From contig NC_058503.1 in NCBI RefSeq assembly GCF_020382885.2, positions 20,903,535-20,967,534 of the forward strand: a stretch of DNA of 64,000 nt, given 5' to 3'. This document shows, one piece after another, positions 40,556 through 64,000 of this stretch (position 1 is its first letter; each line of letters opens with the position of its first letter). The translations under genes were made by a program, and so were the position numbers. The notes under the pieces were generated by a model. The model saw only the letters and a list, made by a program, of their open reading frames with translations, made no database searches and was not told where the DNA came from. The stretch is from Scatophagus argus (Eukaryota; Chordata; Actinopteri; Scatophagidae).

Positions 40556-40684
40556 GCAGGTGGGAGTTGAGGCTCTGGCCCTGATGTTGGCCTCTGGATT
40601 GTTTCCAGCTGAGGTGGGGCTTCTTACTGTATAAAAGCAGAGTCGGTTCACTGCTGCGTCTATGGATCTGCACTCCAGCACTCA
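40556..40684 (+). promoter_or_regulatory. Copy A promoter (class I) and non-coding exon 1
   Basis: TATAAAA lies at 40630-40636. The first exon probably starts near 40660 and ends at 40684 (CACTCA|GTGAGT). From GCAGGTGGGAG at 40556 onward the sequence is almost identical to the promoters of copies C and F. To the left of it the three copies are unrelated. Confidence 0.75.
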
Positions 40685-40814
40685 GTGAGTCCACCAGCAG
40701 CTTTCTGAGCTTCATCACCATAAAATGTGTGTGTGTATTGATTTGTTATGTCAGATGTGTCTAATTCAGTGTCTTCTTTCACTTCAGGGTTTGGATCTGA
40801 TCTGAAACTCCAAA

Positions 40815-41152
40815 ATGTACGGTGAGTAACTCTTTTGCCGACACCACCTGGCCGTCCTTTCTGTCAAACCAAACTTTGTTTATTGAACTTGAAAGGGCAA
40901 AAATTGACATCAGCTTCGTGCAAACTAAAAGTGAAAATAATGAGCTCCGCCCCCTTTGTTTGACCAGGAAACCAGTATCCTGGCTGTTATCCTCAGCAAA
41001 TGGGAGGATACCCTCAGTGTCCACCATGGACTTTCCCATCCCAGCCCTGTCCTCCACAGCCCTGTGGTCCTCCACCCTGTCCTCCACAGCCCTGCGGTCC
41101 TCCACCCCAGCCCTATGTGTGTGGGCCTTCTTGGGGATTTGGATGTCGCTAA
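40815..41152 (+). CDS. Array copy A: short Pro/Cys-rich protein, PRR13-like family
   Basis: Two coding exons, 40815-40821 (only ATGTACG) and 40968-41152, encode 63 aa. It starts MYGNQYPGCYPQQ, is built on PCPPQPCGPP units and ends SWGFGCR. There is no signal peptide or membrane segment, so it is probably intracellular. The exon continues 17 nt past the stop to a donor at 41169/41170. A last exon from about 41413 then carries the former Ser-rich tail as 3' UTR, with AATAAA at 41699-41704. It lacks the Cys/His cluster of copies C and F. The role is unknown. The family link is inferred from the shared gene structure with C and F, whose architecture resembles PRR13. Confidence 0.75.
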
Positions 41153-41719
41153 GGTCCTGGACTGCCAGGGTAAGTTGATTTATTGACATACCAAATTAAA
41201 TGCTGTAAAATGCTTAAAAGAGTCATGTGCTTTTTAAATCAACCTGTTTAACTGTTAACTGTTTAAACTCTTTAATGCTTTCATAAATTGATTCTTATCC
41301 TGTTTCATTTATCTACAGTGTTACTGATATTCCGTTAAATCATGAATTCACGACCTAAAGAGCTGACTGACTGAGTGAACTGACTGAGTTTGTCTCTGCT
41401 GTCGTCCTCCAGCAGCTCCTGCAGCAGCGACTCTGAGGTGAAGACGTCTGGATGGGAGGAGACACAAGACGAGCTGCCGCCTGGAAACCTTCATCCTGCT
41501 GCCGATTCACATCACGATCAGTTCAGTTCAGCGCTTCACATTCAAATTTCTTCTGTTTTTTGTTTTATCGGGCTAATTAATGCATTTAAAAGTCACATAC
41601 TTTCCTACCTTGCATAAAATGTGAGAGAATCTAAACTCTTCTTTTCATGTATCAGAATCATTTCCTCCTGATAAACAACATAAAGCTGCCTTCTGTCTAA
41701 TAAAAGCAAATCATCTCTA

Positions 41720-42110
41720 CAAAACTTTGAATCTCTTTTTCATTTGACCTCATTGGCATCACTGTACTCTGAGTATCTTTATGTGTTTAAGACTCCGACT
41801 CCTGCAGCTGCTAAAGTTACAGAAGGCCTCATCATAAAATACTTCGACCACACTGATACTGGATCTCATTCACACATAATCAAATTGATTTCAAAATGTC
41901 TTAGTTTGGCGCCATCTGGTGGTCATGTCAACAATGACGCTGTGGCAGGCGGCAATGCACACCACAGATGCAAACGGCATTTGTTTTCAGCATTGGTTCG
42001 TGTTCATTTTGCTGTATGTTAAATTCCCAAGACTAAAGACAGCTGATATGTTCTCCAAATTCAAGCCTGTCGAAAAGGACGGTGATTTTAGTGAAAGTGA
42101 AGAAGACGAC
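41720..42110. other. Spacer after copy A, no gene recognised
   Basis: Part (about 41810-41880) resembles the sequence downstream of copies B and D, with AAGGCCTCATCATAAAATACTTCGACC here matching the AAGGTCTAATCATAAAATACTCCGAC stretch there. It is therefore a diverged remnant of the same duplication unit. Confidence 0.45.
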
Positions 42111-42114
42111 TGAA

Positions 42115-42345
42115 GTTTTAAGAAGAAGAGAAAGAATCAGCTTTATTGACAGTATATATTTTTTTACATACACACACTGAATTTGTCTTCTGCATTTGAC
42201 CCATCCTTAGTTGAACACACACATGCAGTGAAACACACACAGGAGCAGTGGGCAGCATCAAGCGCCCGGGGAGCATATTGGGGGGTTAAGTGCCTTGCTC
42301 AAGGGCACATCAGCCGGCTAATGGAGGGGGGGAGCCTCTCGCTCA
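42115..42345 (-). mobile_element. SINE body, minus orientation
   Basis: Reversed copy of the SINE at 7262-7544. It starts with AAGAAGAAG and TTTATTGACAG, then TTGACCCATCCTTAGTTG and GGGGTTAAGTGCCTTGCTCAAGG. The tRNA-like head was not found. Confidence 0.75.
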
Positions 42346-42349
42346 TCAG

Positions 42350-44460
42350 TTCTGAATTTTTCAGTCTTGGAGCACCATTTCTGAGGCAGACAGTCTGGGT
42401 GGAGGAAGTACACATCGTAGTAAAAGTACCAATACTGCACTGTGTAAACAACTATGTTTACAAGCAGTCCTGCAGCCAAAATGTTACTTAAGCCAAACTC
42501 TGCAAGCAGTTCATGTGTACTTAAAGTATACGTCCCTGTGACTGTAAAACTATTAGAAACTATACCAACATGTGGGTGAATCCTCGACACTGATTGTCTA
42601 CAGGGTGTTTGTTCACTATTCTACCAGTGAACTACGCACACATCGACATTATAAATAAATGACATGAAAAATAATCTGAGCGTCTCATTTATTCTACTGA
42701 TTACTCTCTTTCAGTGAACACCACAGGATGGAGACTGTAACACACAAGCAGTACAAGAAGTACACTGTCCCTTCTGAATGTACTGGTACTTCGATACTCA
42801 TCCCACATCCCGTTTGCTCAGGTCACTACTATCACTACCTGTCACTACCTGGTCTGAGTGGCTACAAGGTCTGAGCCTTCATAGAGAGCTACTGTAAGTA
42901 CAGAAACACCCCTTTGGACAAACCACATGATGAACTGCAGTTAAACTGACCATTTGTTCAATGCGTCTTCGTAAAATCACTGACCTGCTGTGCTTCGCTG
43001 TGCTTCCTGTGTGGTGATTCACACAACAGCAGCAACAACAACAACAACAACAGTGTTCTGCCAAACCAAATACCAAACCTGCAATTAACCACGTGACCTG
43101 CAGAAATATCAGCGTGTCCTCTTTTGCACGAGGCAGTTGTGTTTACTAATCAAAGCTTTTTAGTAAAATCCTGGTGCAGGTTTAGACAGTGACGTGGGTG
43201 CAGTTTGGGTGCAGTGGAGATCAGTGTGCAGGCGTCCTGATTTCCTTTCATTAACACGCCCAACTCCAATTCTGCATTTTCATTTCTTTCACAGACATGT
43301 TTTTAATCACTGCCAGTGTTAGTGCGTTTCCTTACAATACACGTGACTTCCATGACAGGCCTACCCAAAGTTCCTCAAAACTACTCCAAGTCCATCAGGT
43401 CGCTCAGGTCCACTGTGTCGGGTCCAGGATGTGAATCTCTGTATTAAGATGCACTGAAACTACAGGAGTTTTAAAGGAGGCAGTGATGCTCTGCAGTGAG
43501 AGCAAACAAAGAGGAAGGTTCAACAAGTCTGGATGGGGAAATGGTCAGAAGACGCAGTGTGTTGGAGATTTCAACCGTCAGCTTTAACCTGCGAACAGTA
43601 CGATGCTAGCTAACGTTAGCTGCAACGGGAGTGGGGGGGGGGGACTCACTGAGTCCACCCAACACTGAGACTACAGAGGGCCTTTATGTGTGTGTTTGGG
43701 TTTTCATGTTACCTGAAAGGCACCGTAGGGGTCATCAACACTTGTCCAAGGGCCCAAATATTTTGATCTGATTTACTGAATTATTAGCCTAATTAGCCTT
43801 TTTTAAAAACATTTTCACTTTCATTTTTCACTTAGAAAATTAATGTTATCTCCAGGACCAGACTCTTAAAAACATGGGAGGACCGTAATGATAACTGGAC
43901 GCTTAGCTGGAAAACCCTGGAGACAGTCAGTACTCGATACGACTCAGCTAACGAATGAGTCCAGGCTGCCTGTTGGTGATCCACATTGGACACGATTGGA
44001 AAAGTTTGGGTATAAGAAGAGCATATTCAGTTGGTAGCATTCTGCAAACACATTAGTTTTATTTTGTGTTGTTATGACAGTGTGCTCTGTGCTGAGACAA
44101 ACTGTTTACAAGGGCTGATATTATCCCTGTGGGTGTAACACTTTGAACAAAGAATAAAAGAAATGTGGTCTGATGAGTTGTTGTCACACCTTAACTATCA
44201 TCAAACCTCAGCTGATTCAGCTAAGCTGCTCCACCCTTTTGGTATTTTGTTAAGTGAAGTAAGATTGTGTCATCCACAAAAGGGACTGAAATTTACTCAC
44301 CTTTTGGCCTTGTGTTCTTGTCATGTTCTGCAAGGTAATTAACGTGACATTTAAGGCAGACACACCCAGTATGAACGTGATGTGGCTCTCATGTTAAACA
44401 AAAGTTCATCTTGGCATTGACCAAAATGTGTAACTTGGTAAAGTTAACTAATGATACACC
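42350..44460. other. Spacer between copies A and B, no gene recognised
   Basis: No recognised coding sequence. A CAGCAACAA run lies near 43025-43055 and a G run near 43627-43639. The part at about 43120-43440 is an old duplicate of 49330-49620, sharing CTACTCCAAGTCCATCAGG, which marks ancestral flanking sequence of B and D. Confidence 0.5.
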
Positions 44461-44474
44461 TGCTGCAGCGAGGT

Positions 44475-44558
44475 GAGGTGTGGCCTCTCACGGTATAAAA
44501 GCAGTAAGCAAAGCAGTCAGTTCACTGCTGTGTCTGTGGATCTGCACTCCAGCACTCA
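44475..44558 (+). promoter_or_regulatory. Copy B promoter (class II) and non-coding exon 1
   Basis: GTGTGGCCTCTCACGG precedes TATAAAA at 44494-44500. The first exon ends at 44558 (CACTCA|GTAAGT). It is shared with copies D and E and differs from class I around the TATA box by carrying CAGTAAG-AAAGCAGTCAG. Confidence 0.75.
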
Positions 44559-44808
44559 GTAAGTTCCTTTGTTAATTGTATTGTATTATTCCGTCATCAT
44601 GTCTTTATCTTCTTTGTCTTGATGCAGGACATCTGACCTGCACTGTTTTCTAATATCTAATGAAACATGCAGTGGACTGCAGAAAAAAATTTACATTTTA
44701 GGTTTGACAACTGCTTAAATCTGCTTTTTCATGACAACAAGTCAGATTTATGTTTAAATTACGTGGCTTTTGTAATTTCAGGGTTTGGATCCGATCTGAA
44801 ATACAGAA

Positions 44809-45211
44809 ATGTCGTTCAACAACAGAGGTAAAAACTCCAGTTCTTCTCTCTTCTGTCTTTTTTGCCTTCACTAAAATCCCGTCGCTGTCTTTTTCTTAAC
44901 ACTTGAAAGATCAAAAACTGACAGATCGTCGTGCATGCAAACTAAAAGAGAAAATGATGAGCTCCACTCCTGTTGTTTGACCAGGAAACCAGTATCCCTA
45001 TGGATGCTATTCTCAGCCAGGAGGATACGCTCAGTGTCGTCCAGGCTTTGTGCGACACCAGTCCTGCACTCCGCCCTTTGTGTCGACTGTCTACAGTCGC
45101 CCGGGCGGTTCATGGACTGGCTGCTTTCCTCAGCAAAGACCACAATGGTGCCCTCCTCAGTCTTCTGGTAAATTTGCTTACTATACCACGACTCGCCGCT
45201 GTCCGTGGTGA
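44809..45211 (+). CDS. Array copy B: diverged short Pro/Cys/Gln-rich protein
   Basis: Exons 44809-44827 and 44985-45211 encode 81 aa. It begins MSFNNRGNQYPYGCYSQPGG and ends TTRRCPW. It has the family head but has lost most PCPPQP units and gained Phe, Tyr, Arg and Ser. The stop is 45 nt before the donor at 45256/45257. The final exon (from about 45844) is 3' UTR, with AATAAA at 46099-46104. It is the most diverged plus-strand copy. The splice sites are good, so it is probably still a gene, but relaxed constraint cannot be excluded. Confidence 0.65.
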
Positions 45212-46124
45212 AGACCGGGACCTGGAGCGTGGTGCTGTGGGTACTTGGCAGTCAGGGTAAGATCCTCTGTGAAGTGTCAATCACTGAGTCTCTAAATGCT
45301 GCACTGCAGAGCACTGACAAAGTGTAAGTGTTACATGGAAGTCATATTAATTTCACTTATGCAATCAAAATGTTAGTTAAATACAACCGAGAGCAATTCA
45401 GTCACAGCCCACATTGTTAGAAAAATTAAAAAACAAACACAAAAACAAACAAGAAAAAAAAAACAATTTTCCATCCGACAAAAATGATCCTGAAAGGAAG
45501 AATTTAAATCATTTTAATTTGATCTCTTTTGGTCTTTCAAGTCCAACTGGTTCAGCTGTTCCAAAGATGACACATATGAACATTTCCTCATGCAGCCTCT
45601 GTGGTAGACAGAGACACGACTCCTAATGGACGCTAACGTTGCTCTGCGTCTGCTGGACGCGAGCCGTCAGTCTTAAGTTCACAGATGGTTTTTGCTGCCC
45701 TCGAAAAGAAAGAAAGAAATGGAAGAAACAAGAAGGAATTTATTTGAAGTGTTACTGATATTCCGTTAAATCATGAATTCACGACCTGAAGAGCTGACTG
45801 ACTGAGTGAGCTGACAGAGTTTGTCTCTGCTGTCGTCCTCCAGCAGCTCCTGCAGCAGCGACTCTGAGGTGAAGACGTCTGGATGGGAGGAGACACAAGA
45901 CGAGCTGCCGCCTGGAGACCTTCATCCTGCTGCTGATTCTCATCACGATCAGTTCAGTTCAGCGCTTCACATTCAAATTTCTCTGTTTTAAAGCTTCTGA
46001 GTGATGGGACGCCATGTTTGCTGTGTTTGCTTTTCATGTATCAGACGCTGATCAGAATCATTTCCTCCTGATAAACAGCATAAAACTGCCTTCTGTCTAA
46101 TAAAAGCAAGTCATCTCTACCAAA

Positions 46125-46785: not shown

Positions 46786-47083
46786 AAGTTTGGTAGAGAT
46801 GACTTGCTTTTATTAGACAGAAGGCAGTTTTACGTTGTTTATCAGGAGGAAATGATTCTGATCAGCGTCTGATACATGAAAAGCAAACACAGCGTCACAC
46901 ACTGACTGATGCTGAAGTCGTTTTCACACAAAGCAACGCTGCAGTATTTGAAAAGAAAGTTTTGAAACACACACTTTGAATTTTAAGTGGTCAGATAAAG
47001 TGATTATGATGACGATTGGCAGCAGGATGAAGGTTTTCGGGTGGCAGCTCGTCTTGTGTCTCCTCCCATCCAGACGTCTTCCT

Positions 47084-48208
47084 CTAGTCAGAGTCGCTGC
47101 TGCAGGAGCTGCTGGAGGACTGCAGCAGAGACAAACAGGAAGCGTCCATCAGTCAGGACAACCTTTTAACGCTCATGAACCTGCAACTCCTGATTATTGT
47201 CATTATGGATGATTGCTCGTTCACCCACAAGCACACTGAACCTTCAAAGATTATTAAAAACATAATCTGTAGTCTCTGTTTTTCCCCTGGATAAAAAAAT
47301 CTTTAAAATATTTTAGTTATAACATGAATGACAAAGTATTTCTGTTATTTCAACAGAAACAAACCCTTTAAGCTTGTTGTTTCTCTGAACACTGAACCAA
47401 CCACACTTCCTGTTGTGAATAAAGTGAACACGACTGAATCTTACCCCGTGACACTCCGTCCCCTTCTTGTGACACCTGACGTGCTGGTGGCCACACTTGT
47501 GCTTGTGCCTGCACTTTTCAGCAAGTTTCTGGCCGGGGCCACATCCTTGTCCAGGACCACATCCTTGTCCAGGACCACATCCTTGTCCAGGGCCACATCC
47601 TTGTCCAGGACCACATCCTTGTCCAGGGCCACATCCTTGTCCAGGGCCACATCCTTGTCCAGGACCACATCCTTGTCCATGGCCATGGCCCCAACTTGCC
47701 CAACAAGGCCTTGGTCCACACTGGAGAGCTGGGCCACAGGGCTGATGAGGGCAGGGAGGAGGAGGACCCCAGGGCTGATGAGGGCAGGGAGGAGGACCAC
47801 AGGGCCGAGGACCACAGGGCTGATGAGGCCAGGGAGGGGGAGGACCCCAGGGCTGATGAGGGCAGGGAGGAGGAGGACCCCAGGGCTGATGAGGGCAGGG
47901 AGGAGGACCACAGGGCCGAGGACCACAGGGCTGATGAGGGCAGACCTGAGGAGGGGCAGTCCACGGTGGACACTGATGGTATCCTCCTGGCTCAGGAAAG
48001 CAGCCATGGGGATACTGGTGTCCTAGTCAAAAAAGAGGCGGAGCTTATTATTCTCTGCTTAAGTTTGGATACACTTGATGTCAATTTTTGCTCCTTCAGA
48101 TTCAAGTTTGACAAAAAGGACAGCAGTGGGGTTTTAGTAAAAGTGAAAAAATGGAGAATAAACAAAAGACTGAGAGCTGAAGTATTTACCTCCGCTATAC
48201 CACGACAT
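47084..48208 (-). CDS. Array copy C: full-length Pro/Cys/Gly-rich protein with Ser-Asp tail (PRR13-like)
   Basis: Three minus-strand coding exons (48208-48190, 48022-47445, 47119-47084) sum to 633 nt, giving 210 aa. The frame has no ATG inside its large exon, so it is visible only after splicing. In order: head MSWYSGGHQYPHGCF; repeats of CPHQPWGPPP and CGPRPCGPPP (about 30-110); eight tandem GPGQGC-type hexapeptides; a basic cluster KCRHKHKCGHQHVRCHKKG; then a tail from the last exon, SSSSSCSSDSD. PRR13 likewise has a Pro-rich body, a His/Lys-rich cluster and a poly-Ser-Asp end, though without these cysteines. TATA box at 48666-48672, leader exon ending 48618, AATAAA at 46809-46814 (all minus). 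The function is unknown; metal binding by the Cys/His cluster is inference. Confidence 0.75.
47541..47684 (-). repeat. 18-bp coding minisatellite, eight units, in copy C
   Basis: Eight 18-bp units of the pattern ACATCCTTGTCCAGGACC (plus strand) follow each other without a gap. They encode Gly-Pro-Gly-Gln-Gly-Cys in copy C. Copy F has only a diverged short equivalent, so the run expanded after the copies separated. Confidence 0.9.
47739..47945 (-). repeat. Higher-order repeat encoding Pro/His/Trp-rich segment of copy C
   Basis: Segments starting AGGGCTGATGAGG(G/C)CAGGGAGG recur six times on the plus strand with alternating spacing (about 27-48 bases). A longer block of several segments is itself duplicated. 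The coding strand gives CPHQPWGPPP and CPHQPCGPRPCGPPP units. Confidence 0.8.
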
Positions 48209-48617
48209 TGCCGAACTTCAGGTCAGATCCAAAGCCTGAAATTAAAAAAGCCACATAATTTAAACACAAACCCCATTTAACATAAGGAGAGAAATACAAT
48301 TTTAATGAAAAGCAGATTTAAACAGTTGTAAAGCCTAAAATATTATATTGTTTAGAAAGACAGAAACTGCAGTCCACTGAGGAAAAGACTGCGTGTTCTG
48401 TTAAACATTAGACAGTGGAAGTCAGAAGTCCTGCATCGTGCAGTCAGTGATGAACACATCATAAAGACATCAGCATGTCTGACATGAGGACAGAATAATA
48501 CAATACAGTTAAGAAAGGAAATACAAGATGAGTACACATCAATCAACACACAAACTCAGACACACACACACACACATTTTATGGTGATGAAGCTCAGAAA
48601 GCTGCTGGTGGACTCAC

Positions 48618-48745
48618 TGAGTGCTGGAGTGCAGATCCACAGACGCAGCAGTGAACCGACTCTGCTTTTATACAGTAAGAAGCCCCACCTCAGCTGGAAA
48701 CAATCCAGAGGCCAACATCAGGGCCAGAGCCTCAACTCCCACCTG
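48618..48745 (-). promoter_or_regulatory. Copy C promoter (class I) and non-coding exon 1
   Basis: Reverse complement of the copy A and F promoters. TATAAAA is at 48672-48666 and the leader exon ends at 48618 (CACTCA|GTGAGT). Similarity to A and F stops at about 48745 on the upstream side. Confidence 0.75.
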
Positions 48746-48749
48746 CAGC

Positions 48750-50510: not shown

Positions 50511-51849
50511 CATGGATTTAAAAACCACAACATCCCTCCCTTATGGCAAATTGTTTATTAAAATGGACAGCAAAAGTGGCTCCAAGCGGCTTCACGATGC
50601 AAGATCACTTCTTCTAATGAAAAACACTCACTGTGAGGGAACTCTTCAACCAGGCCCGAGTTAAACACCAATAACACCGCAGTCATACACACACAACACG
50701 ACAGCAGTGAAATCAAATCAAAAAGATGGCAGCCCCTACCAGCTTCCTGTCATCGATCTGTGTTAAGTCTCATTCAGACAAAATCAGGCTTTGTTCTAAG
50801 ATCCAGCAGAGTAAACATCTCATAAAGATATGACATATTACACTGCAAAGCAGCCTGGCCTAAATTCCACCCAGCTTATCTACGCCAGACAATGTTTCAG
50901 CCTCGCCAAGGCGACTTTGTCCTGGTTAACCTTATCAAATGCAAAACATGTTTAATCACTGACAACACTGTTAATGCTGTTGCGAGTTAATAAAATCTAA
51001 CTGCATATAAAATCTCAAACTATTCACAATGTTGGTTTCAAAAAAGCTGTTGAACTAACTGGCTACATCACACAGCCTGGTGACGAACGGATGCCCACAT
51101 TCGAGTATCTTTGAGAATTGCCCGACTTCTTGCACATTTGTTCATTAGAGGTTTCTTGTCATTGTTGTTACTATCATTTTTGTTTAAAATCTTCTTTTTT
51201 TTGATGTCAGTGAAATCTGTCACCTTACTTCTCAGCTTGCAGTAAAGAATCTAAAGGATCTAAGAGGCTCCCTGATTCATGAGACTCGCTGTAACATGCA
51301 GGATTCTCTGCTTTCTGTTTTTAAAAACACCAGCGAGCAACTGTTGAGTTTCATTCTGAGGTCGTCTGCTACTTTTGTTGAGCTAACGCTAAAACCACCA
51401 ACATTCAATGTGATGTCTTCAGGACAACAAGCCAACAGCAATATATACCTCAGTAACCAGGACGACAAAAATGAAGTCAGAAGCTCATTGTCCCGCTCCC
51501 GTTTGGCCATACAGGAGCATCAGCTGCTGCTCCACCAGACTACAGAGCAGCAGGAAAAACTGTATTCACTTTCAACATCTGAGCTGGTGGCAGACATTAA
51601 TATTCACTGCATAAACACAGCCGCTCTTGTTGCTGATGGTCTCTCATGCAGGTCATGTAATGTCATCAGTATTAAAGTGAGACCGATTCAGGACCACTTC
51701 AGAGTTCCTTATAGAACATGAAAGTGTTGTTGAATGCAAGAGCTCCACTCTCCCTTGGATTGGAGTAATATTTGAGCAGGAGTACTTATACTTTACTGAA
51801 GTAATGGAGTGGTGTCCTTTGTCCTCCACTGGATGTCAGGCTCTGGATT

Positions 51850-51943
51850 GTTTCTGTCTGAGGTGTGGCCTCTCACAGTATAAAAGCAGTAAGAAAAGCA
51901 GTCAGTTCACTGCTGTGTCTGTGGATCTGCACTCCAGCACTCA
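51850..51943 (+). promoter_or_regulatory. Copy D promoter (class II) and non-coding exon 1
   Basis: TATAAAA at 51879-51885. The leader exon ends at 51943 (CACTCA|GTAAGT). The first intron starts with a TG microsatellite at about 51966-51988. Confidence 0.75.
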
Positions 51944-52257
51944 GTAAGTCCACTAGTGGCTGAGCTGTGTGTGTGTGTGTGTGTGTGTCCATAGATTTCT
52001 AATCCTGTATTTCCTTTGTTAGCCGTGTTGTTTCATTCTGTCATCAGTCAGACATGCTGAAGGCTTTGTGATGAATTTTCTTCTGGCCTGCACTGACTGT
52101 TTTCTGATATTTAATAAAGCACACAGTGAACTGCAGTTTTGTTTTTGAATTTCTATGCGATGTAACATTTTAGGTTTTACAACTGGTTGAATCTGCTTTT
52201 ACATTTTAACAACACCTTCTTTGATTTCAAGGTTTGGATCTGATCTGAAATTGCAAA

Positions 52258-52656
52258 ATGTACGGCATGAACTCAGGTGAGTAACTCACTTGCTGTAACT
52301 TTCTTCGTTGTCAGTCCGTCTCACTTTTACTTGAACCCATCCCAGTCATTTGACATCTGCTGTGTACAAACTAAAAGAGAAAATGATGAGCTCCACCCCC
52401 TTCTGTTTGACTAGGAAACCGCTGTTATCCTCAGCCAATGGGAGGAGGAGGATACCCTCAGTGTCCTCCAGGTCCTGCACCTCCTCAGATGTGTCCTCCT
52501 CAGCCCTGCCCTCCTCAGTTTGGTGGCCCATATGTGTGCTACCCTGCAGGTGGATTTGGCGGTTCAGGGTCTGGCTACTGTCCTCAGCCAATGCCACCCT
52601 GCCCTCCTCCGCCTTCATATGTGTGCTATCCCACACCCCCACGTTGTCCATGGTGA
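52258..52656 (+). CDS. Array copy D: 86-aa Pro/Gly/Cys-rich protein
   Basis: Exons 52258-52276 and 52415-52656 sum to 261 nt, giving 86 aa. It starts MYGMNSGNRCYPQPMGGGGY, has CPPQPCPPQFGGPYVCYP and SYVCYPTPPRCPW, and no signal peptide. The stop lies 45 nt before the donor at 52701/52702. The last exon (from about 53014) is untranslated, with AATAAA at 53269-53274. The protein is identical to that of copy E. The Pro/Gly/Tyr/Cys content is typical of low-complexity or cross-linked structural proteins, but no function is known. Confidence 0.75.
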
Positions 52657-53969
52657 GGACCAGGGCCTGGTGGATGTGGCTGCAGGTCCTTGGCAGTCAG
52701 GGTAAGATCCAGTTTATTTTTAATCAAAATGTTAGTCCAATACAACTGAGAGCAATTCAGTAACAAACCACATTGTCCAAAAAGACAAAACAAAACAAAA
52801 CAGTTTTCACCCCGACAAAAATGATCCTGAAAGGAAGAACTTTTTGATCTGACAGAAAGAAAGAAAGAAAAAGAAATGAAAGCGTACAACAAAAGAAACA
52901 AGAAGGAATTTATTTGAAGTGTGACTGATATTCCGTTAAATCATGAATTCACGACCTAAAGAGCTGACTGACTGAGTGAACTGACAGAGTTTGTCTCTGC
53001 TGTCGTCCTCCAGCAGCTCCTGCAGCAGCGACTCTGAGGTGAAGACGTCTGGATGGGAGGAGACACAAGACGAGCTGCCGCCTGGAAACCTTCATCCTGC
53101 TGCCGATTCTCATCACAATCAGTTCAGTTCAGCGCTTCACATTCAAATTTCTCTGTTTTAAAGCTTCTATGTGATGGGACGCCATGTTTGCTGTGTTTGC
53201 TTTTCATGTATCAGACTCTGATCAGAATCATTTCCTCCTGATAAACAACATAAAACTGCCTTCTGTCTAATAAAAGCAAGTCATCTCTACCAAACTTTGT
53301 GTCTTCATTTTGTTCATACAGCTCTTGTTTATACTGGAATGTTTATCGATCGAGACTCAGACCAGAGATTTCAGGGCTGAGCACCTGATCTCCACTGATC
53401 CTAGAACAGCCCCTGCTGACATTTAAACAACCATGTGAATGAGAGCTTTGCGTTCAGCAGACAGTCTGAGCAGACCAGCGTGTAGCGAAGGCTTGGTGTT
53501 GCACCGTCAGGTTTTGGTATTTGTTCAGCTCTTTGTGGTCTTTTCAGTGTGAGGGCACCTAAAGACACAATCAGTAAGAAAAATCCAAGTTAAGTTAATT
53601 CACTTCCAGTTATGTTTGGTCTCAAAGTTTGGCCTTTGATTTTTGGTCAACCACACCTTCCACTTTGGTGGCTGAGAAGTGATGAGCTGCAGCTGGTGGA
53701 GTAACCGAAGGTCTAATCATAAAATACTCCGACTTCACTGATCCTGGATCTCGTTCTGGACTAAAGGGACCAGCTGGCAGCCCTGATCACCAGCTGCTAA
53801 TTTGGTCTGATGTTTGGTTGCTGCTCAGAAGCATGTAGGTGTTTATTTCATTGGAACAAAAATAAATAAAAAATTGCCAATTGAATGAGTGACGGGAGAT
53901 TTTTGTTTCATCCAACAAAGATGTGTTGTGATGTGGAAAAGAGAACAGAGAGACAAAGTTTGGTAGAGA

Positions 53970-54255
53970 TGACTTGCTTTTATTAGACAGAAGGCAGTTT
54001 TATGTTGTTTATCAGGAGGAAATGATTCTGATCAGCGTCTGATACATGAAAAGCAAACACAGCGTCACACACTGACTGATGCTGAAGTCGTTTTCACACA
54101 AAGCAACGCTGCAGTATTTGAAAAGAAAGTTTTGAAACACACACTTTGAATTTTAAGTGATCAGATAAAGTGATTATGATGACGATTGGCAGCAGGATGA
54201 AGGTTTCTGTGCGGCAGCTCGTCTTGTGTCTCCTCCCATCCAGACGTCTTCCTCT
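53970..54255 (-). pseudogene. 3' end fragment of a copy C-type gene
   Basis: It matches 46800-47085 (the 3' UTR and stop region of copy C) in the same minus orientation. It ends abruptly inside the last exon, where unit 2 of the tandem duplication begins. No promoter or coding exon remains, so it is a gene remnant left at a duplication junction. Confidence 0.8.
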
Positions 54256-55594
54256 TCATGGATTTAAAAACCACAACATCCCTCCCTCATGGCAAATTGT
54301 TTATTAAAATGGACAGCAAAAGTGGCTCCAAGCGGCTTCATGATGCAAGATAACTTCTTCTAATGAAAAACACTCACTGTGAGGGAACTCTTCAACCAGG
54401 CCCGAGCTAAACACCAATAACACCGCAGTCATACACACACAACACGACAGCAGTGAAATCAAATCAAAAAGATGGCAGCCCCTACCAGCTTCCTGTCATC
54501 GATCTGTGTTAAGTCTCATTCAGACAAAATCAGGCTTTGTTCTAAGATCCAGCAGAGTAAACATCTCATAAAGATATGACATTTTACACTGCAAAGCAGC
54601 CTGGCTTAATTCCACCCAGCTTATCTACGCCAGACAATGTTTCAGCCTCGCCAAGGCGACTTTGTCCTGGTTAACCTTATCAAATGCAAAACATGTTTAA
54701 TCACTGACAACACTGTTAATGCTGTTGCGAGTTAATAAAATCTAACTGCATATAAAATCTCAAACTATTCACAATGTTGGTTTCAAAAAAGCTGTTGAAC
54801 TAACTGGCTACATCACACAGCCTGGTGACGAACGGATGCCCACATTCGAGTATCTTTGAGAATTGCCCGACTTCTTGCACATTTGTTCATTAGAGGTTTC
54901 TTGTCATTGTTGTTACTATCATTTTTGTTTAAAATCTTCTTTTTTTTGATGTCAGTGAAATCTGTCACCTTACTTCTCAGCTTGCAGTAAAGAATCTAAA
55001 GGATCTAAGAGGCTCCCTGATTCATGAGACTCGCTGTAACATGCAGGATTCTCTGCTTTCTGTTTTTAAAAACACCAGCGAGCAACTGTTGAGTTTCATT
55101 CTGAGGTCGTCTGCTACTTTTGTTGAGCTAACGCTAAAACCACCAACATTCAATGTGATGTCTTCAGGACAACAAGCCAACAGCAATATATACCTCAGTA
55201 ACCAGGACGACAAAAATGAAGTCAGAAGCTCATTGTCCCGCTCCCGTTTGGCCATACAGGAGCATCAGCTGCTGCTCCACCAGACTACAGAGCAGCAGGA
55301 AAAACTGTATTCACTTTCAACATCTGAGCTGGTGGCAGACATTAATATTCACTGCATAAACACAGCCGCTCTTGTTGCTGATGGTCTCTCATGCAGGTCA
55401 TGTAATGTCATCAGTATTAAAGTGAGACCGATTCAGGACCACTTCAGAGTTCCTTATAGAACATGAAAGTGTTGTTGAACGCAAGAGCTCCACTTTCCCT
55501 TGGATTGGAGTAATATTTGAGCAGGAGTACTTATACTTTACTGAAGTAATGGAGTGGTGTCCTTTGTCCTCCACTGGATGTCAGGCTCTGGATT

Positions 55595-55688
55595 GTTTCT
55601 GTCTGAGGTGTGGCCTCTCACAGTATAAAAGCAGTAAGAAAAGCAGTCAGTTCACTGCTGTGTCTGTGGATCTGCACTCCAGCACTCA
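55595..55688 (+). promoter_or_regulatory. Copy E promoter (class II) and non-coding exon 1
   Basis: Same sequence as copy D: TATAAAA at 55624-55630 and leader exon ending at 55688. Confidence 0.75.
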
Positions 55689-56002
55689 GTAAGTCCACTA
55701 GTGGCTGAGCTGTGTGTGTGTGTGTGTGTGTGTCCATAGATTTCTAATCCTGTATTTCCTTTGTTAGCCGTGTTGTTTCATTCTGTCATCAGTCAGACAT
55801 GCTGAAGGCTTTGTGATGAATTTTCTTCTGACCTGCACTGACTGTTTTCTGATATTTAATAAAGCACACAGTGAATTGCAGTTTTGTTTTTGGATTTCTA
55901 TGCGATGTACCATTTTAGGTTTTACAACTGGTTGAATCTGCTTTTACATTTTAACAACACCTTCTTTGATTTCAAGGTTTGGATCTGATCTGAAATTGCA
56001 AA

Positions 56003-56401
56003 ATGTACGGCATGAACTCAGGTGAGTAACTCACTTGCTGTAACTTTCTTCGTTGTCAGTCCGTCTCACTTTTACTTGAACCCATCCCAGTCATTTGACA
56101 TCTGCTGTGTACAAACTAAAAGAGAAAATGATGAGCTCCACCCCCTTCTGTTTGACTAGGAAACCGCTGTTATCCTCAGCCAATGGGAGGAGGAGGATAC
56201 CCTCAGTGTCCTCCAGGTCCTGCACCTCCTCAGATGTGTCCTCCTCAGCCCTGCCCTCCTCAGTTTGGTGGCCCATATGTGTGCTACCCTGCAGGTGGAT
56301 TTGGCGGTTCAGGGTCTGGCTACTGTCCTCAGCCAATGCCACCCTGCCCTCCTCCGCCTTCATATGTGTGCTATCCCACACCCCCACGTTGTCCATGGTG
56401 A
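56003..56401 (+). CDS. Array copy E: 86-aa protein identical to copy D
   Basis: Exons 56003-56021 and 56160-56401 encode the same 86 aa as copy D, in the duplicated unit. The donor is at 56446/56447 and the last exon starts at about 56759. The family poly(A) signal is missing because the duplication ends at about 56966. An ATTAAA at 57050-57055 in the new flank may replace it. Confidence 0.75.
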
Positions 56402-57159
56402 GGACCAGGGCCTGGTGGATGTGGCTGTAGGTCCTTGGCAGTCAGGGTAAGATCCAGTTTATTTTTAATCAAAAAGTTAGTCAAATACAACTGAGAGCAA
56501 TTCAGTCACAAACCACATTGTCCAAAAAGACAAAACAAAACAAAACAGTTTTCACCCCGACAAAAATGATCCTGAAAGGAAGAACTTTTTGACCTGACAG
56601 AAAGAAAGAAAGAAAAAGAAATGAAAGCGTACAACAAAAGAAACAAGAAGGAATTTATTTGAAGTGTTACTGATATTCCGTTAAATCATGAATTCACAAC
56701 CTAAAGAGCTGACTGACTGAGTGAACTGACAGAGTTTGTCTCTGCTGTCGTCCTCCAGCAGCTCCTGCAGCAGCGACTCTGAGGTGAAGACGTCTGGATG
56801 GGAGGAGACACAAGACGAGCTGCCGCCTGGAAACCTTCATCCTGCTGCCGATTCTCATCACGATCAGTTCAGTTCAGCGCTTCACATTCAAATTTCTCTG
56901 TTTTAAAGCTTCTGTGTAATGGGACGTCATGTTTGCTGTGTTTGTTTCATGTATCAGACGCTCATCGTAATTGCATTCATTTCATTCAAGCAGTTCATTT
57001 CTCCAGCACTTCAACCTCTTCATTCTCCTTCTTCTGTAATCTTATGTCAATTAAACATTCAATTAATTATTGTTACGCCTCACAGTTGTTTGTCTCTACG
57101 CAGCAGTCAAGTTGCAATTTACATCCAAGTCATCTCATATAATACACTCATATAATATC

Positions 57160-58460
57160 TGGAGTGACTGACAGAGAGCAGCAACAACCACCTGAAGCTC
57201 AGGATCAGCAGAAATCAACCAGCTTGTGCTGGACTACAAAGCTGCAGAGAAGCTACGGAGGCTTTACACACATGTCCAACCCAGCAGAACAGAAGATCTC
57301 TGCTCAGTCAGAGTCTCTAGTTCGGTATGTGACCGCATGCATCTGACTTTAGGCCTCTTGTTGACCACATGGGACTGAGTTTAATACCTGAGTTATTGCT
57401 GTCTATCTATGTAAATTTGTGAGCTCACAGTAACCTTTGACCACCAAAATCTAATCTAAGTTTCTGAGAAACGGACAGACTGACAAGTCATTCGCAGACA
57501 CAGAGGGATGAAAATTACAAACATTTGTTCCTTCCAGCTTCTTGTTTAATATCTTTGTAAATCAATCATCTTTGTGTGTTAGGTCTCTTGTTGGCACTTT
57601 TACTTTTTCTCTGACATTTCAGAGAAAAGTGACAGGTTACTGATGGTGAACATAATGTAACACACAAAGCCTCTCCTCCCTCTGTTTCACACATCACTGA
57701 CTTTTGGCTTCAACGCATTGAGTGTGGCGCCCCCTGGTGAGTCAATGTGGTTCCAGCACCTGTCTAAGATCGAGGACGGGGAAGTCTTCCTCTGCAGCCA
57801 GGCTGACAGCATTAACAGAAGCAGAACAGGGAAGAACTGAGAAAAGACCTCGATGAGAGATCCCGAAAAGTTTCTCGATACGTTTCTACCGTTTACTACC
57901 CACATACAAAACAGGGGGCCCAAGTCCATACTGGACATGTGTTTACTTACATATGCTTGCTTACATATTTTTTTAAAAATATTTAAATTGTTTTCCAAAA
58001 GACATTTTTTCTAAACGAGGACAGTGTGTGCAACATAATTAACAGAGACAATCCATGCACCAGACGTGAAGACTTCTGAATGGGAGACACACCATCGAAC
58101 ATGAGCTCTTCTTCTTCTTCTTCTTCTTCTTCTTCTTTCTCTCTGGAGATGAGCTGATGAGGAGGCTGACATGAAAAAATTGGCCTCTTGTGTATCTTGT
58201 GCTATGTCCCAGAGGAAGTCCAGGGGATGAGGACAGTACGCAGAACATCAGCTGTGGTGAGACAGCTTCTAAGCCATTCGGAGACCAACGATCACCACCT
58301 CAAATAACCAGCTGGTTTGGAGTAAAAGCTGAGATTCCAAACAAACATGTCAGGAGGTTTTATCCAGCTGAAGTGTGTGCTCTGAACTGCGGTTCAACTT
58401 GTCTGATTGTCGAATTTGGTTGGTTTGGACACAACACGACTACAACACAGCTCATAGGGG
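57160..58460. other. Spacer after copy E, no gene recognised
   Basis: No recognisable coding sequence. A TTC run lies at about 58108-58136. Copies of the array were not found here. Confidence 0.5.
58108..58136. repeat. TTC trinucleotide microsatellite
   Basis: About nine CTT/TTC units in a row, followed by TTCTCTCTGG. Confidence 0.85.
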
Positions 58461-58464
58461 AACA

Positions 58465-58810
58465 GGGGCAGCTGTGGTCTAGAGGTTGGAGGAGCGGCTT
58501 GTGATCGGAAGATCGCTGGTTCGATTCCCCCACCAGACGCTCAGGAAAAATTTGAATGAAAACAATTGAGTGTGGTGGAATGACTAATGTGGAAAATGTT
58601 CCTCCTGCTCCATTAGCCGGCAGCTTGAGCAAGGCACTTAACCCCCAATTTGCCAATTTACAGCCCACTGCTCCTGTGTGTGTTTCACTGCATGTAATTT
58701 GCTGGGTGTTGCATGTGTGTGCAACTAAGGATGGGTTGAATGCAGAAGACAAATTCAGTGTGTGTATGTAAAAATATATATACTGCCAATGAAAAGATTC
58801 TTAATTCTTC
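58465..58810 (+). mobile_element. tRNA-derived SINE, near full length
   Basis: The head has an A-box-like TGGTCTAGAGGTTGG and a B-box-like GGTTCGATTCC. The body follows with TTGAGCAAGGCACTTAACCCC, CACTGCATGTAATTTGCTGG and AACTAAGGATGGGTTGAATG, then an A/T-rich TTCTTAATTCTTC end. It is the most complete copy here and defines the family for the other three. Confidence 0.85.
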
Positions 58811-58814
58811 TTAA

Positions 58815-59940
58815 TAAAATGAAAACGACCGACTGGAATATGTTATTCAGTATAACTTTAACATGCAGCTACCACTCAGGGAACAGTTACACCCATTCTG
58901 CAGCTCAGCTCGCTGAATGTTACACACACAGGAGCAAAAGTCAAAGAAATAAGCGAGTAATTTTACATGGTGGGCTCTGAAATGAGAAGATTAGACAGTG
59001 AAAACAGAGCTTTCAGTCAAGAGTGGACAAACTCTTACATGTTCCTCCCAGCTTCAAAACCAGCTCTCAGTCTCACATCCCAGACGCTTATTGAAAGCAA
59101 CACGAAGCGCCACCACGAGACAAACCGCATGAGGCGACGGATAATTGAGGACAATATTTTATATGACCCTGAACTGCACCTCTTTGAATTTTAAACTCTT
59201 TTCTCTGAATCACCAGGATGATTTTCAGCCAGTGGTTTTTAGTACTCCCTCCTGTCTGCCAGCACCGAAGTGTCCTGGACAGTGCAGGTTAGCAGTGAAC
59301 TCAACAACAGGAGTCAAAGTGAGGCGTGACTAATGACAAAACTAAAATCTGGAGTATCCTCAACAGGATGAGGATTATTGTGCAACAGTAAGAAGAAGTG
59401 AGAAGGTTTTCTTTAGAATTTCTCTAAAAAATGTGCTGTGTGAAATCACTCCGCTGACCTTCTGACTCCTTCTGTTCCTGTTGACCTGAAGGGGAGTTAA
59501 ATGTGACTGTTTAACACCACAAGTTACTACAGTTACAAGTTATTTCCACTGTAAAATTAATGGAGGATGTGAACTTGAAGAATTGTTCTTTTTCTCCTCA
59601 CATCTCCAAAACTATCAACATGCTGGTCATGTGTCCACGATCACACAGCACAGCACATAAATCATATGTGCAAAGTCAGCACAACACTGATTTGAGTGAA
59701 ATTTTCTCTGTTTATTGTATAAAGTTTGGTTTAAATTTCGTCCGGAAGAGGACTGATGTGTGACAAAAGTTTGCCTCACTGCAACAGATGATCAGTCAAT
59801 CTGTATATAACATCTCCACGAGTCTTCACTGAAACGTGACCAACATCTTTTTAGCAAGTATTTGTAACAGACAGTAATGCAGCAGAGTGATGTGTGGTGA
59901 TTATTCTGAATGTTATGGCCAGCATTTTGAGTCGGATTTA
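58815..59940. other. Spacer upstream of copy F, no gene recognised
   Basis: Only chance-level frames; no repeat family recognised. Confidence 0.5.
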
Positions 59941-59962
59941 AACAGAGTCTGTCACATGTGAT

Positions 59963-60091
59963 GCAGGTGGGAGTTGAGGCTCTGGCCCTGATGTTGGCCT
60001 CTGGATTGTTTCCAGCTGAGGTGGGGCTTCTTACTGTATAAAAGCAGAGTCGGTTCACTGCTGTGTCTGTGGATCTGCACTTCAGCACTCA
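59963..60091 (+). promoter_or_regulatory. Copy F promoter (class I) and non-coding exon 1
   Basis: TATAAAA at 60037-60043. The leader exon ends at 60091 (CACTCA|GTGAGT). The sequence from GCAGGTGGGAG onward matches copies A and C. Confidence 0.75.
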
Positions 60092-60221
60092 GTGAGTCCA
60101 CCAGCAGCTTTCTGAGCTTCATCACCATAAAATATGTGTGTGTATTGATTTGTTATGTCAGATGTGTCTAATTCAGTGTCTTCTTTCACTTCAGGGTTTG
60201 GATCTGATCTGAAACTCCAAA

Positions 60222-61599
60222 ATGTACGGTGAGTAACTCTTTTGCCGACACCACCTGGCCGTCCTTTTTGTCAAACCAAACTTTGTTTATTGAACTTGAA
60301 AGAGCAAAAATTGACATCAGCTTCGTCAGATAAGATAAGATAAGATAAGATAAGATAAGATAAGATAAGATAAGATAAGATATGAACTTTATTGATCCTG
60401 CAGGAAATTGTTGTGCCAGGGTTACAATACGAAGAAGCATACAAAAGTAGCAAGTAATTTTTCACACAAAACATAAAAATAACAGAGAAATATATAAAAA
60501 GAAATAACAGAGTACTATGAAAAACAACAGAGTATATACATGAAAATAGATAACAGCAAATAAGGTGCAGAACAACAAAGGATAAGGTGCGGATACAATC
60601 TTAAAGTGTTAATTGTAGTGCAGGATAAATTGTTATTGTCCTATGTGGAGAAAGGGGATGAGCTGAAGAGTTTGATAGCCACAGGGAGGAAGGACTTCCT
60701 GTGGTGTTCTGTGGAGCACCTCGCTGGTCTCAGTCTACGACTGAAGGTGCTGCGGTAGGATTCTTGTTTAGGATGTTGAGCAGTTTCCTCAGCATGTTCT
60801 GCTCAGACAAACTAAAACAGAAAATGATGAGCTCCGCCCCCTTTGTTTGACCAGGAAACCAGTATCCTTATGGCTGTTATCCTCAGCCAATGGGAGGATA
60901 CCCTCAGTGTCCACCATGGACTGCCCCACCCCAGCCCTGTCCTCCTCAGCCCTATGGTCCTCAGCCCTGTCCTCCTCAGCCCTGTGGTCCCCAGCCCTGC
61001 CCCCCTCAGCCCGGTGGTCAACCTGTGTGCCACCCTGCGGCTACACCTTGTGGATGGTATGGACCAGGTCCTAGCTGGGCAAGCTGGGGGTATGGATGGA
61101 GCAATGGTCCTGGGCAAAAACAAGGACAAGGATGTGTCTGTGGTACCAGCTGTGGCCGTGGCAAGCAAGATGGCAAGAAATGCAGGCACAAGCACAAGTG
61201 TGGCCACCAGCACGTCAGGTGTCACAAGAAGGGGACGGAGTGTCACGGGGTAAGATTCAGTCGTGTTCACTTTATTCACAACAGGAAGTGTGGTTGGTTC
61301 AGTGTTCAGAGAAACAACAAGCTTAAAGGGCTTGTTTCTGTTGAAATAACAGAAATACTTTGTCATTCATGTTATAACTAAAATATTTTAAAGATTTTTT
61401 TATCCAGGGGAAAAACAGAGACTATAGATTATGTTTTTAATAATTTTTGAAGGTTCAGTGTGCTTGTGGGTGAACGAGCAATCATCCAATCAGGAGTTGC
61501 AGGTTCATGAGCGTTAAAAGGTTGTCCTGACTGATGGACGCTTCCTGTTTGTCTCTGCTGCAGTCCTCCAGCAGCTCCTGCAGCAGCGACTCTGACTAG
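60222..61599 (+). CDS. Array copy F: full-length Pro/Cys-rich protein with Ser-Asp tail (PRR13-like)
   Basis: Exons 60222-60228, 60855-61249 and 61564-61599 sum to 438 nt, giving 145 aa. In order: head MYGNQYPYGCYPQPMGGY; PCPPQPYGPQ and PCPPQPCGPQ units (about 25-55); a Gly/Trp/Ser stretch with SWASWGYGWSNGPGQ; a Cys/His/Lys cluster from GKKCRHKHKCGHQHVRC to KKGTECHG; then the last exon adds SSSSSCSSDSD. The cluster and tail are the same as in copy C. Human PRR13 also ends in a His/Lys-rich cluster followed by poly-Ser and DSD, which is the basis of the family name; direct orthology is not proven. AATAAA at 61869-61874. Intron 2 carries an antisense LINE fragment. Function unknown. The SSDSD end would suit CK2 phosphorylation (inference). 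Confidence 0.78.
60327..60806 (-). mobile_element. 5'-truncated LINE (non-LTR retrotransposon) 3' end in copy F intron 2
   Basis: Read on the minus strand it encodes STEHHRKSFLPVAIKLFSSS followed by a stop. That is the usual C-terminal pattern of L2/Rex1-type LINE reverse transcriptase proteins. An A/T-rich 3' UTR with GGATCAATAAAG and a TTATC-repeat tail follow. Copy A has the same intron without it, so the insertion postdates the A/F split. Only the last few hundred bases are present. Confidence 0.75.
60329..60381. repeat. GATAA pentanucleotide repeat (LINE tail)
   Basis: About ten GATAA units at the 3' terminus of the antisense LINE fragment. They form its tail rather than an independent microsatellite. 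Confidence 0.85.
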
Positions 61600-61899
61600 A
61601 GGAAGACGTCTGGATGGGAGGAGACACAAGACGAGCTGCCACCCGAAAACCTTCATCCTGCTGCCAATCGTCATCATAATCAGTTTATCTGATCACTTAA
61701 AATTCAAAGTGTGTGTTTCAAAACTTTCTTTTCAAATACTGCAGCGTTGCTTTGTGTGAAAACGACTTCAGCATCAGTCAGTGTGTGACGCTGTGTTTGC
61801 TTTTCATGTATCAGACGCTGATCAGAATCATTTCCTCCTGATAAACAACGTAAAACTGCCTTCTGTCTAATAAAAGCAAGTCATCTCTACCAAACTTTG

Positions 61900-62515
61900 T
61901 CTCTCTGTTCTCTTTTCCACATCACAACACATCTTTGTTGGATGAAACAAAAATCACAAAAGTCACTCATTCAATTGTCAATTTTTTATTTATTTTTGTT
62001 CCAATGAAATAAACACCTACATGCTTCTGAGCAGCAACCAAACATCAGACCAAATTAGCAGCTGGTGATCAGGGCTGCCAGCTGGTCCCTTTAGTCCAGA
62101 ACGAGATCCAGGATCAGTGAAGTCGGAGTATTTTATGATTAGACCTTCTGTTACTCCTCCAAAGTGGAAGGTGTGGTTGACCAAAAATCAAAGGCCAAAC
62201 TTAACTGGAAGTGAATTAACTTAACTTGGATTTTTCTTACTGATTGTGTCTTTAGATGCCCTCACACTGAAAAGACCACAAAGAGCTGAACAAATACCAA
62301 AACCTGACGGTGCAACACCAAGCCTTCACTACACGCTGGTCTGCTCAGACTGTCTGCTGAACGCAAAGCTCTCATTCACATGGTTGTTCAAATGTCAGCA
62401 GGGGCTGTTCTAGGATCAGTGGAGATCAGGTGCTCAGCCCTGAAATCTCTGATCTGAGTCTCAATTGATAAACATTCCAGTATAAACAAGAGCTGTATGA
62501 ACAAAATGAAAACAC
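61900..62515. other. Spacer between convergent copies F and G
   Basis: Reverse complement of the B/C spacer (46125-46785), with few differences. No gene. Confidence 0.75.
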
Positions 62516-63416
62516 AAAGTTTGGTAGAGATGACTTGCTTTTATTAGACACAAGGCAGTTTTATGTTGTTTATCAGGAGGAAATTCTGATCAGAGTCTGA
62601 TACATGAAAAGCAAACACAGCAAACATGGCGTCCCATCACTCAGAAGCTTTAAAACAGAGAAATTGGAATGTGAAGCGCTGAACTGAACTGATCGTGATG
62701 AGACTCGGCAGCAGGATGAAGGTCTCCAGGCGGCAGCTCGTCTTGTGTCTCCTCCCATCCAGACGTCTTCACCTCAGAGTCGCTGCTGCAGGAGCTGCTG
62801 GAGGACGACAGCAGAGACAAACTCTGTCAGTTCACTCAGTCAGTCAGCTCTTTAGGTCGTGAATTCATGATTTAATGGAATATCAGTAACACTTCAAATA
62901 AATTCCTTCTTGTTTCTTCCATTTCTTTCTTTCTTTTCGAGGGCAGCAAAAACCATCTGTGAACTTAAGACTGACGGCTCGCGTCCAGCAGACGCAGAGC
63001 AACGTTAGCGTCCATTAGGAGTCGTGTCTCTGTCTGCCACAGAGGCTGCATGAGGAAATGTTCACATGTGTCGTCTTTGGAACAGCTGAACCAGTTGGAC
63101 TTGAAAGACCAAAAGAGATCAAATCAAAATGATTTAAGTTCTTCCTTTCAGGATCATTTTTGTCGAATGAAAAATTTTTTTTAACAATGTGGGTTGTGAC
63201 TCTCAGTTGTATTGGACTGATGAAATTGAAATTAGTATGCCTGAAACGTAACTCAGTTAGACTCAATGATGATCACATTTATATTCACATTTAAATAAAC
63301 TGGATCTTACCCTGACTGCCAAGGACCTGCAGCCACATCCACCAGGCCCTGGTCCTCACCATGGACGTGGGGGTGTGGGATAGCACACATATGAAGGCGG
63401 AGGAGGGCAGGGTGGA
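62515..63416 (-). pseudogene. Array copy G: 5'-truncated copy of a B/D-type gene
   Basis: On the minus strand it keeps the poly(A) signal (62545-62540), the last exon (from about 62797), the intron and the 3' part of the Pro-rich exon (63416-63311, with donor at 63311/63310). The intron (about 62920-63160) is closest to copy B. The exon piece, encoding the CPPPPSYVCYP region, is closest to D/E. Sequence beyond 63416 is unrelated, so promoter, leader, start codon and head are gone. Confidence 0.8.
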
Positions 63417-63909: not shown

Positions 63910-64000
63910 TGCGTGCAGCCGTGGCCTAGAGGTTGGCGAAGCGGCTTGTGATCAGAAGGTCATTGGTTTGATTCCCCCACTGGATGGGCAGGTAAAATTT
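63910..64000 (+). mobile_element. tRNA-like head of a SINE, cut by window end
   Basis: TGGCCTAGAGGTTGG (A-box-like) and GGTTTGATTCC (B-box-like) with a GGGCAGGTAAAATTT end match the head of the SINE at 58465. The rest lies beyond the window. Confidence 0.75.

Follow-up and report, generated by a model that had tools for sequence, protein, structure and literature searches.

Origin of the Pro/Cys-rich gene array

Do the small genes rich in proline and cysteine that crowd some 23 kb of the Scatophagus argus genome form a real family, and is that family related to PRR13 (TXR1), a gene that, to our knowledge, is treated as single and poorly understood in mammals? The window, the whole stretch of DNA that was analyzed, comprises 64,000 nucleotides (C11:20903535-20967534) and contains copies A to F and a broken copy, G; a further copy, H, lies outside it. 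Gene models A-F were built manually and checked by script. Copies A-F are a real array of genuine predicted genes that look protein-coding, with a common promoter, a common gene structure, coding constraint and loss of the tail exon in one branch. The locus as a whole is a genuine local gene cluster, partly homogenized, whose genes have PRR13-type architecture and of which one derived branch lacks the tail.

Self-comparison of the window resolved 40.5-63.2 kb into a web of tandem and inverted duplications, which bears out the array proposed in an earlier sequence-only reading of this DNA; its six copies and broken G were all found in their places. All six copies carry a 36-nt block of exon 1 with 0-2 mismatches, and even with up to 7 mismatches allowed the block occurs at no other place in the window, which excludes a chance origin. 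Chance low-complexity open reading frames (ORFs) were rejected on the constraint, the common splice signals and the common promoter.

A 92-nt promoter/exon-1 query was compared with the 570.7-Mb, 48-contig assembly, and all eight candidates were scored, the counts being lower bounds. At least eight genomic matches were found, all within about 41 kb (C11:20944143-20984602). Six are A-F, the seventh is the promoter of G and the eighth is H; the last two are outside the window, so the array extends past its end. When exon 3 of F was used as the genome query, it matched only F and A at E<=0.001, indicating that protein searches in this genome miss diverged copies. Beyond the G promoter (L010:2930-3096), a D-type upstream unit was seen by eye to run into a further relic of a C/F-type 3' untranslated region (3'UTR), which suggests that the array continues.

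The promoter of G is located at C11:20967777-20967872 (window-equivalent 64243-64338, minus strand). G keeps its promoter, exon 1 and 3' half. Where exon 2 and the beginning of exon 3 should be, it has about 0.8 kb of other DNA, which by eye contains a tRNA-like short interspersed element (SINE). Lacking a start exon, G is a pseudogene. The idea that it is merely cut by the window edge was rejected, since its promoter was found beyond that edge with foreign DNA between; the truncated copy of the sequence-only reading is thus indeed broken, by replacement of its start exon. A short RGWRSGL-coding sequence, by eye apparently a tRNA-like SINE head, is common to 58480-58504 and 63930-63951, and one occurrence lies inside the DNA that interrupts G.

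Promoter, exon structure and splice signals

All six copies share the TATA box, non-coding exon 1, 7- or 19-nt start exon and Pro/Cys-rich exon that had been proposed for them. The core promoter reads CTGAGGTG(G/T)GGC...GTATAAAAGCAG throughout, with the start in B reading GTGAGGTG. Exon 1 ends CTCA/GTRAGT (the slash marks the splice junction) and an AG acceptor precedes exon 3 in all six. The coding start is either 7 nt (ATGTACG; A and F) or 19 nt long (B, C, D and E), and always in phase 1. The exon-1 donors are weak, which counts against these models: five of the six were scored, E being left out, and reached 5.44-5.57 of a maximum of 12.58 on a provisional weight matrix.

Farther upstream, the DNA splits into an A/C/F type and a B/D/E type. 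Copy C has mixed affinities. Its promoter and exon 1 are of the A/F type (99.5% identical to A over 185 bp), most of its intron 1 can be aligned to B and D (83 and 85%), and its exon 3 is nearest to that of F (88.7%). This mixture points to C being a product of conversion or recombination.

Coding constraint in exon 3

Nonsynonymous divergence (dN) was below synonymous divergence (dS) in all 14 differing pairs of the 15 compared; D and E are identical, which leaves 10 distinct comparisons. In ungapped blocks, all 10 pairs had a ratio of nonsynonymous to synonymous differences (pN/pS) below 1 when read in the true frame, and in six of them this frame gave the lowest ratio of the three. In the other four pairs, another frame had a lower pN/pS than the coding frame. 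Indel lengths in free alignments (23 multiples of three and 34 others in exon 3; 12 and 44 in introns) did not discriminate exon 3 from introns. Between A and F, exon 3 is 91.7% identical, below introns 1 and 2 (99.0 and 98.0%), as if the 5' ends had been homogenized, a pattern that constraint alone would not predict. Overall, the comparisons provide good but not uniform support for coding constraint on exon 3, with a moderate frame control.

D and E arose by a recent tandem duplication and match each other at 98.97% over 2.7 kb. The compared parts hold 25 aligned base differences and 3 gap positions; 8 differences are upstream, 4 in intron 1, 1 in the exon-3 UTR and 12 in intron 3 and exon 4. 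The 242 nt of exon-3 coding sequence contain none, which at such low divergence is a weak indication of constraint.

Long and short forms

Of the window copies, C and F alone extend into a Lys/His/Cys block and an exon-4 tail, SSSSSCSSDSD. In A, B, D and E the reading frame closes within exon 3, at 17 nt from its donor in A and 45 nt in B, D and E; the tail exon of these copies belongs to the 3'UTR unless splicing is altered. The claim that only C and F have the full architecture holds inside the window and fails beyond it, where H is also complete. The modelled H product has 154 aa (MSWNNKGYQRPQ...HHHHRHGHMHGHCHKKGKQCHGSSSSSCSSDSD; 27% Gly, 27% His), with a Gly/His-rich middle and the same tail as C and F.

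The exon-4 acceptor CTGCAG and the GAC TAG end are common to C, F and H; the corresponding sequences in A, B, D, E and G are CTGTCG and GAG GTG. The change is polarized by H, an outlying full copy that shares exon 4, acceptor and TAG stop with C and F. In addition, A, D and G each align to F across their stop codons better than any of 1000 shuffles. Together, the shared exon 4 and the alignment across the stops suggest that the long form is older. The alignments are less favorable for B, with 45 of 1000 shuffles as good against F, and the same comparison with C gave 0 (D), 1 (A), 4 (G) and 238 (B) of 1000. Most simply, C and F, with H as reference, would keep the older form, and A, B, D, E and G would be derived.

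Compared with H, the core promoter and exon 1 are 86-90% identical, the exon-4 coding part 97% (C and F only) and the first 60 nt of the 3'UTR 92-95%. The exon-3 head is intermediate (71-85%), and less conservation is found in exon 2 (62-75%), intron 2 (64-74%), the exon-3 end (68%) and intron 3 (39-44%). Over the 60 nt that follow the ancestral stop (53039-53098, 61600-61659 and L012:3002-3061), F, C, D, B and H show 90-100% identity, in contrast to intron 3, where C and F can hardly be aligned to H. A structured RNA in the exon-4/3'UTR block was rejected, because the three sequences folded were not more stable than shuffles (z 0.31, 0.40 and 1.85).

The exon-3 stops could also mean that only C, F and H work, and that the duplicates A, B, D and E are in decay and just happen to be open still. 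The replacement of the exon-4 acceptor by CTGTCG agrees with such decay, as does the state of E, where the AATAAA common to A, B, C, D, F and G is lost and an ATTAAA is the sole signal left. Nevertheless, dN is below dS also among the short pairs A/B, A/D and B/D, although another frame is lower in A/B and B/D; the 17-45 nt between stop and exon-3 donor are few enough for escape from nonsense-mediated decay under the usual 50-nt rule; and the core promoter and exon 1 are kept. We consider wholesale decay of the short copies unlikely.

Alternatively, D and E may not have lost the tail at all. A donor overlapping their TGA (CCATG/GTGAGG) would join exon 4 in frame and give a longer Ser-Asp-rich tail, ..RCPCSSCSSDSEVKTSGWEETQDELPP... 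On the same provisional matrix, this donor reaches 9.03 and the downstream one (GTCAGG/GTAAGA) 8.63; the overlapping donor also occurs in G, and scores slightly above the downstream donor in D, E and G alike. Its phase 2 fits the acceptor CCTCCAG, and a 29-nt core of exon 4 is identical in all seven window copies. The phase fit, however, has one chance in three, and no counterpart above the 5.5 cut was listed at the same place for A or B. The tail differences among D, E and G all change amino acids (D/G 4, E/G 3, D/E 1, none silent), the pattern expected of untranslated DNA, and pairs with A or B, with 1-3 silent and 1-6 changing differences, also look untranslated. Such an extended product is improbable, and tail loss in the derived branch is the preferred reading.

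Relationship to PRR13

PRR13 has a Pro-rich head, a basic Lys/His block and a Ser...DSD end, and the human protein begins with MWNPNAG. C, F and H follow the same order, from a Pro-rich head through a Lys/His-rich block to a Ser-Asp C-terminus, which A, B, D and E do not. The H product starts with MSWNNKG, the start exon is likewise short and in phase 1, the main exon is Pro-rich, exon 1 is non-coding, and the short last exon codes Ser...DSD. In H, the start exon measures 19 nt and the tail exon is in phase 0. At least four exons are present in mouse, since exons 3 and 4 of Prr13 were floxed according to PMC11936294, which also reports PRR13 to be a nuclear protein affecting thrombospondin-1 expression. 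The S. argus locus differs in having seven open copies (A-F, H) and a pseudogene, in being Cys-rich with Gly/His or Gly/Cys repeats, in the four copies without a tail, and in the neighbors found; except for the layout and the tail, sequence similarity does not exceed composition.

The human PRR13 query is a provisional sequence, and the exon phases of the human gene are provisional too. At full length, none of 2000 shuffles scored as well as F or as well as H, owing to the order of Pro block, basic block and Ser tail. The last 45 residues were equalled by 0 (F) and 25 (H) of 2000 shuffles. The remaining comparisons do not show homology. For F, neither the head (384 of 2000) nor the tail-less Lys/His block (129 of 2000) can be told apart from composition; the H head is marginal (33 of 2000) and the H block does not exceed composition (1497 of 2000). 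With phmmer, all six of A-F had negative scores against the provisional human sequence (E=6). A figure legend for ayu places prr13 with pcbp2 and map3k12 (PMC8389408, legend only), and no gene of either type was among the 15 further ORFs scanned. The case for PRR13 homology stands on the layout and a provisional sequence. "PRR13-like", as the sequence-only reading put it, seems fair for the architecture, which H strengthens, and the phmmer, shuffle and neighbor results leave family membership unproven; PRR13 ancestry is likely but unproven.

Searches elsewhere gave little. No Pfam family was matched at cut-off by A-F or H, and the weak hits (E 0.013 for C, 0.017 for D) are far below curated scores. 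F, the one product searched there, had 0 sequence matches in the PDB. In viral contigs, 1 of 14 pattern matches was confirmed, over 12 residues, and was taken as chance. A fish PRR13-like array was not found in the literature among the titles and abstract openings of the matches listed.

Comparison with epidermal gene clusters

The same data allow for an unrelated origin, in which these are teleost cross-linkable structural proteins of the cornified-envelope or keratin-associated style, and their likeness to PRR13 arose by low-complexity convergence on Pro, His/Lys and Ser-Asp. The composition-level similarity of F outside the Ser tail, the empty phmmer result and the neighbors unlike those in the ayu legend are all compatible with this. 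Genes of the epidermal differentiation complex (EDC) have a TATA box and vary in length by coding repeats. Both features recur here, and as in simple EDC genes of the SPRR and loricrin type, the genes are small and clustered, with a non-coding first exon and Pro/Cys/Gln repeats; the tandem layout and minisatellites are likewise in the style of epidermal clusters. Cornified breeding tubercles occur in various teleosts (PMC11152450), so an epithelial role is possible.

Exon structure speaks against EDC identity. Simple EDC genes carry their whole coding sequence in one exon, which follows a non-coding exon (PMC7393497). Further marks of such genes are expression in cornifying epithelium and cross-linking by transglutaminase. 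Here the start codon has its own exon in all six copies and in H, coding sequence occupies two or three exons, and C, F and H have a separate Ser-Asp tail exon. Simple EDC gene identity is excluded on this ground. The proteins match no Pfam family at cut-off, which also counts against a structural-protein family. The resemblance to epidermal clusters noted earlier therefore survives as an analogy only. An unrelated structural family is possible but less probable than PRR13-type descent or common ancestry.

Gene models and neighboring sequences

The features of the array are listed in Table 1. Exon 3 of C contains coding minisatellites at 47539-47943, an 18-nt unit repeated 7.8 times (GCGPGQ) and a 111-nt unit repeated 1.9 times at 98%, which are likely to underlie length polymorphism. 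Intron 2 of F carries an insertion (60321-60800) that opens with an 11-copy AGATA repeat and has, by eye, a 3' end resembling a long interspersed element. In a motif search of the window, the exon-4 motif and coding part were absent from the relic behind D.

Table 1. Positions of the array features (window coordinates unless marked C11)
Feature	Span	Strand	TATA; exon 1	Exon 2; ATG	Exon 3; stop	Exon 4 or relic	Polyadenylation signal	Product or remark
Gene A	40630..41704	+	40630-40635; non-coding, to 40684	40788-40821; 40815	40968-41169; TAA ends 41152	relic/3'UTR from 41413	AATAAA 41699	63 aa, MYGNQYPGCYPQQ..GFGCR
Gene B	44494..46104	+	44494; to 44558	44782-44827; 44809	44985-45256; TGA ends 45211	relic from 45844	AATAAA 46099	81 aa
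Gene C (full form)	46809..48672	-	48672-48667; to 48618	48235-48190; 48208	48022-47445	coding 47119-47084	AATAAA 46814	210 aa
Gene D	51879..53274	+	51879; to 51943	52232-52276; 52258	52415-52701; TGA ends 52656	relic from 53014	AATAAA 53269	86 aa
Relic of C/F-type 3' end behind D	53694..54255	-						3'UTR only; 97.5% to 62161-61598
Gene E	55624..57055	+	55624	55977-56021; 56003	56160-56446; TGA ends 56401		ATTAAA 57050	86 aa, identical to D
Gene F (full form)	60037..61874	+	60037; to 60091	60195-60228; 60222	60855-61249	coding 61564-61599	AATAAA 61869	145 aa, ends ..KCRHKHKCGHQHVRCHKKGTECHGSSSSSCSSDSD
Pseudogene G	62540..63416	-			partial	relic	AATAAA 62545	3' half of D-like copy
Gene H (full copy)	C11:20984542							all four exons; outside window

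The neighbor scan covered 15 ORFs in part of the window besides the gene models. Flanking genes at 7926-37239 are Rcd1/CNOT9 (-), a ubiquitin hydrolase with UIM (+), YbeY (-) and MCM3AP (+), the hydrolase and UIM matches falling just under the Pfam cut-offs. At 38229-38399 (-) lies the relic of a DDE_3 transposase end (E 5.3e-5, under the Pfam cut-off), which we take to be Tc1-like. A 177-aa ORF with identical translation is found upstream of D (51188-51721) and of E (54933-55466), with no credible Pfam match.

Proposed model and significance

We propose a local, still-changing family of genes for small intracellular proteins with PRR13-type descent or a common ancestor, a reading that we judge about evenly balanced between being right and wrong. 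The ancestral form, kept by C, F and H, would have had four exons, namely a non-coding exon 1 behind a TATA promoter, a tiny start exon, a main exon and a tail exon. The main exon would have been of low complexity, coding a Pro/Cys/Gln/Tyr-rich head followed by a Lys/His/Cys- or Gly/His-rich basic block, and the short last exon would have coded SSSSSCSSDSD. Its most probable source is a PRR13-type gene or an ancestor common to the family and such a gene. Tandem and inverted duplication, accompanied by sequence homogenization, may then have multiplied it. In the branch of A, B, D, E and G, the splice acceptor and stop of the tail exon would have been lost and stops gained in exon 3, leaving Pro/Cys-rich miniproteins of 63-86 aa.

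The shared TATA core promoter may drive strong, abundant expression in one cell type. The Pro/Cys/Gln-rich heads would form extended chains that associate or cross-link through their cysteines by disulfides, and perhaps also through Gln/Lys by transglutaminase. In the long forms, the His/Cys block may bind metal or acidic partners, and the Ser-Asp tail may be an acidic end controlled by phosphorylation. The short forms would retain the cross-linking module only.

A bolder version is speculative and probably wrong. In it, a nuclear PRR13-type gene would have given rise, in one teleost lineage, to clustered structural proteins that bind metal and cross-link with themselves. Under one shared promoter, the ancestral protein would have been split into long forms bearing a charged, phosphorylatable tail and short Pro/Cys-only forms, and fish would thereby have acquired, independently, an equivalent of the epidermal clusters of tetrapods.

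The locus is of interest for specialists and is not a new kind of system. A cluster in which the tail is kept or lost while the core promoter and the terminal exon are conserved would be a natural experiment on the roles of the protein parts, and would put to the test the idea that clustered cross-linking proteins also evolved separately in fish.

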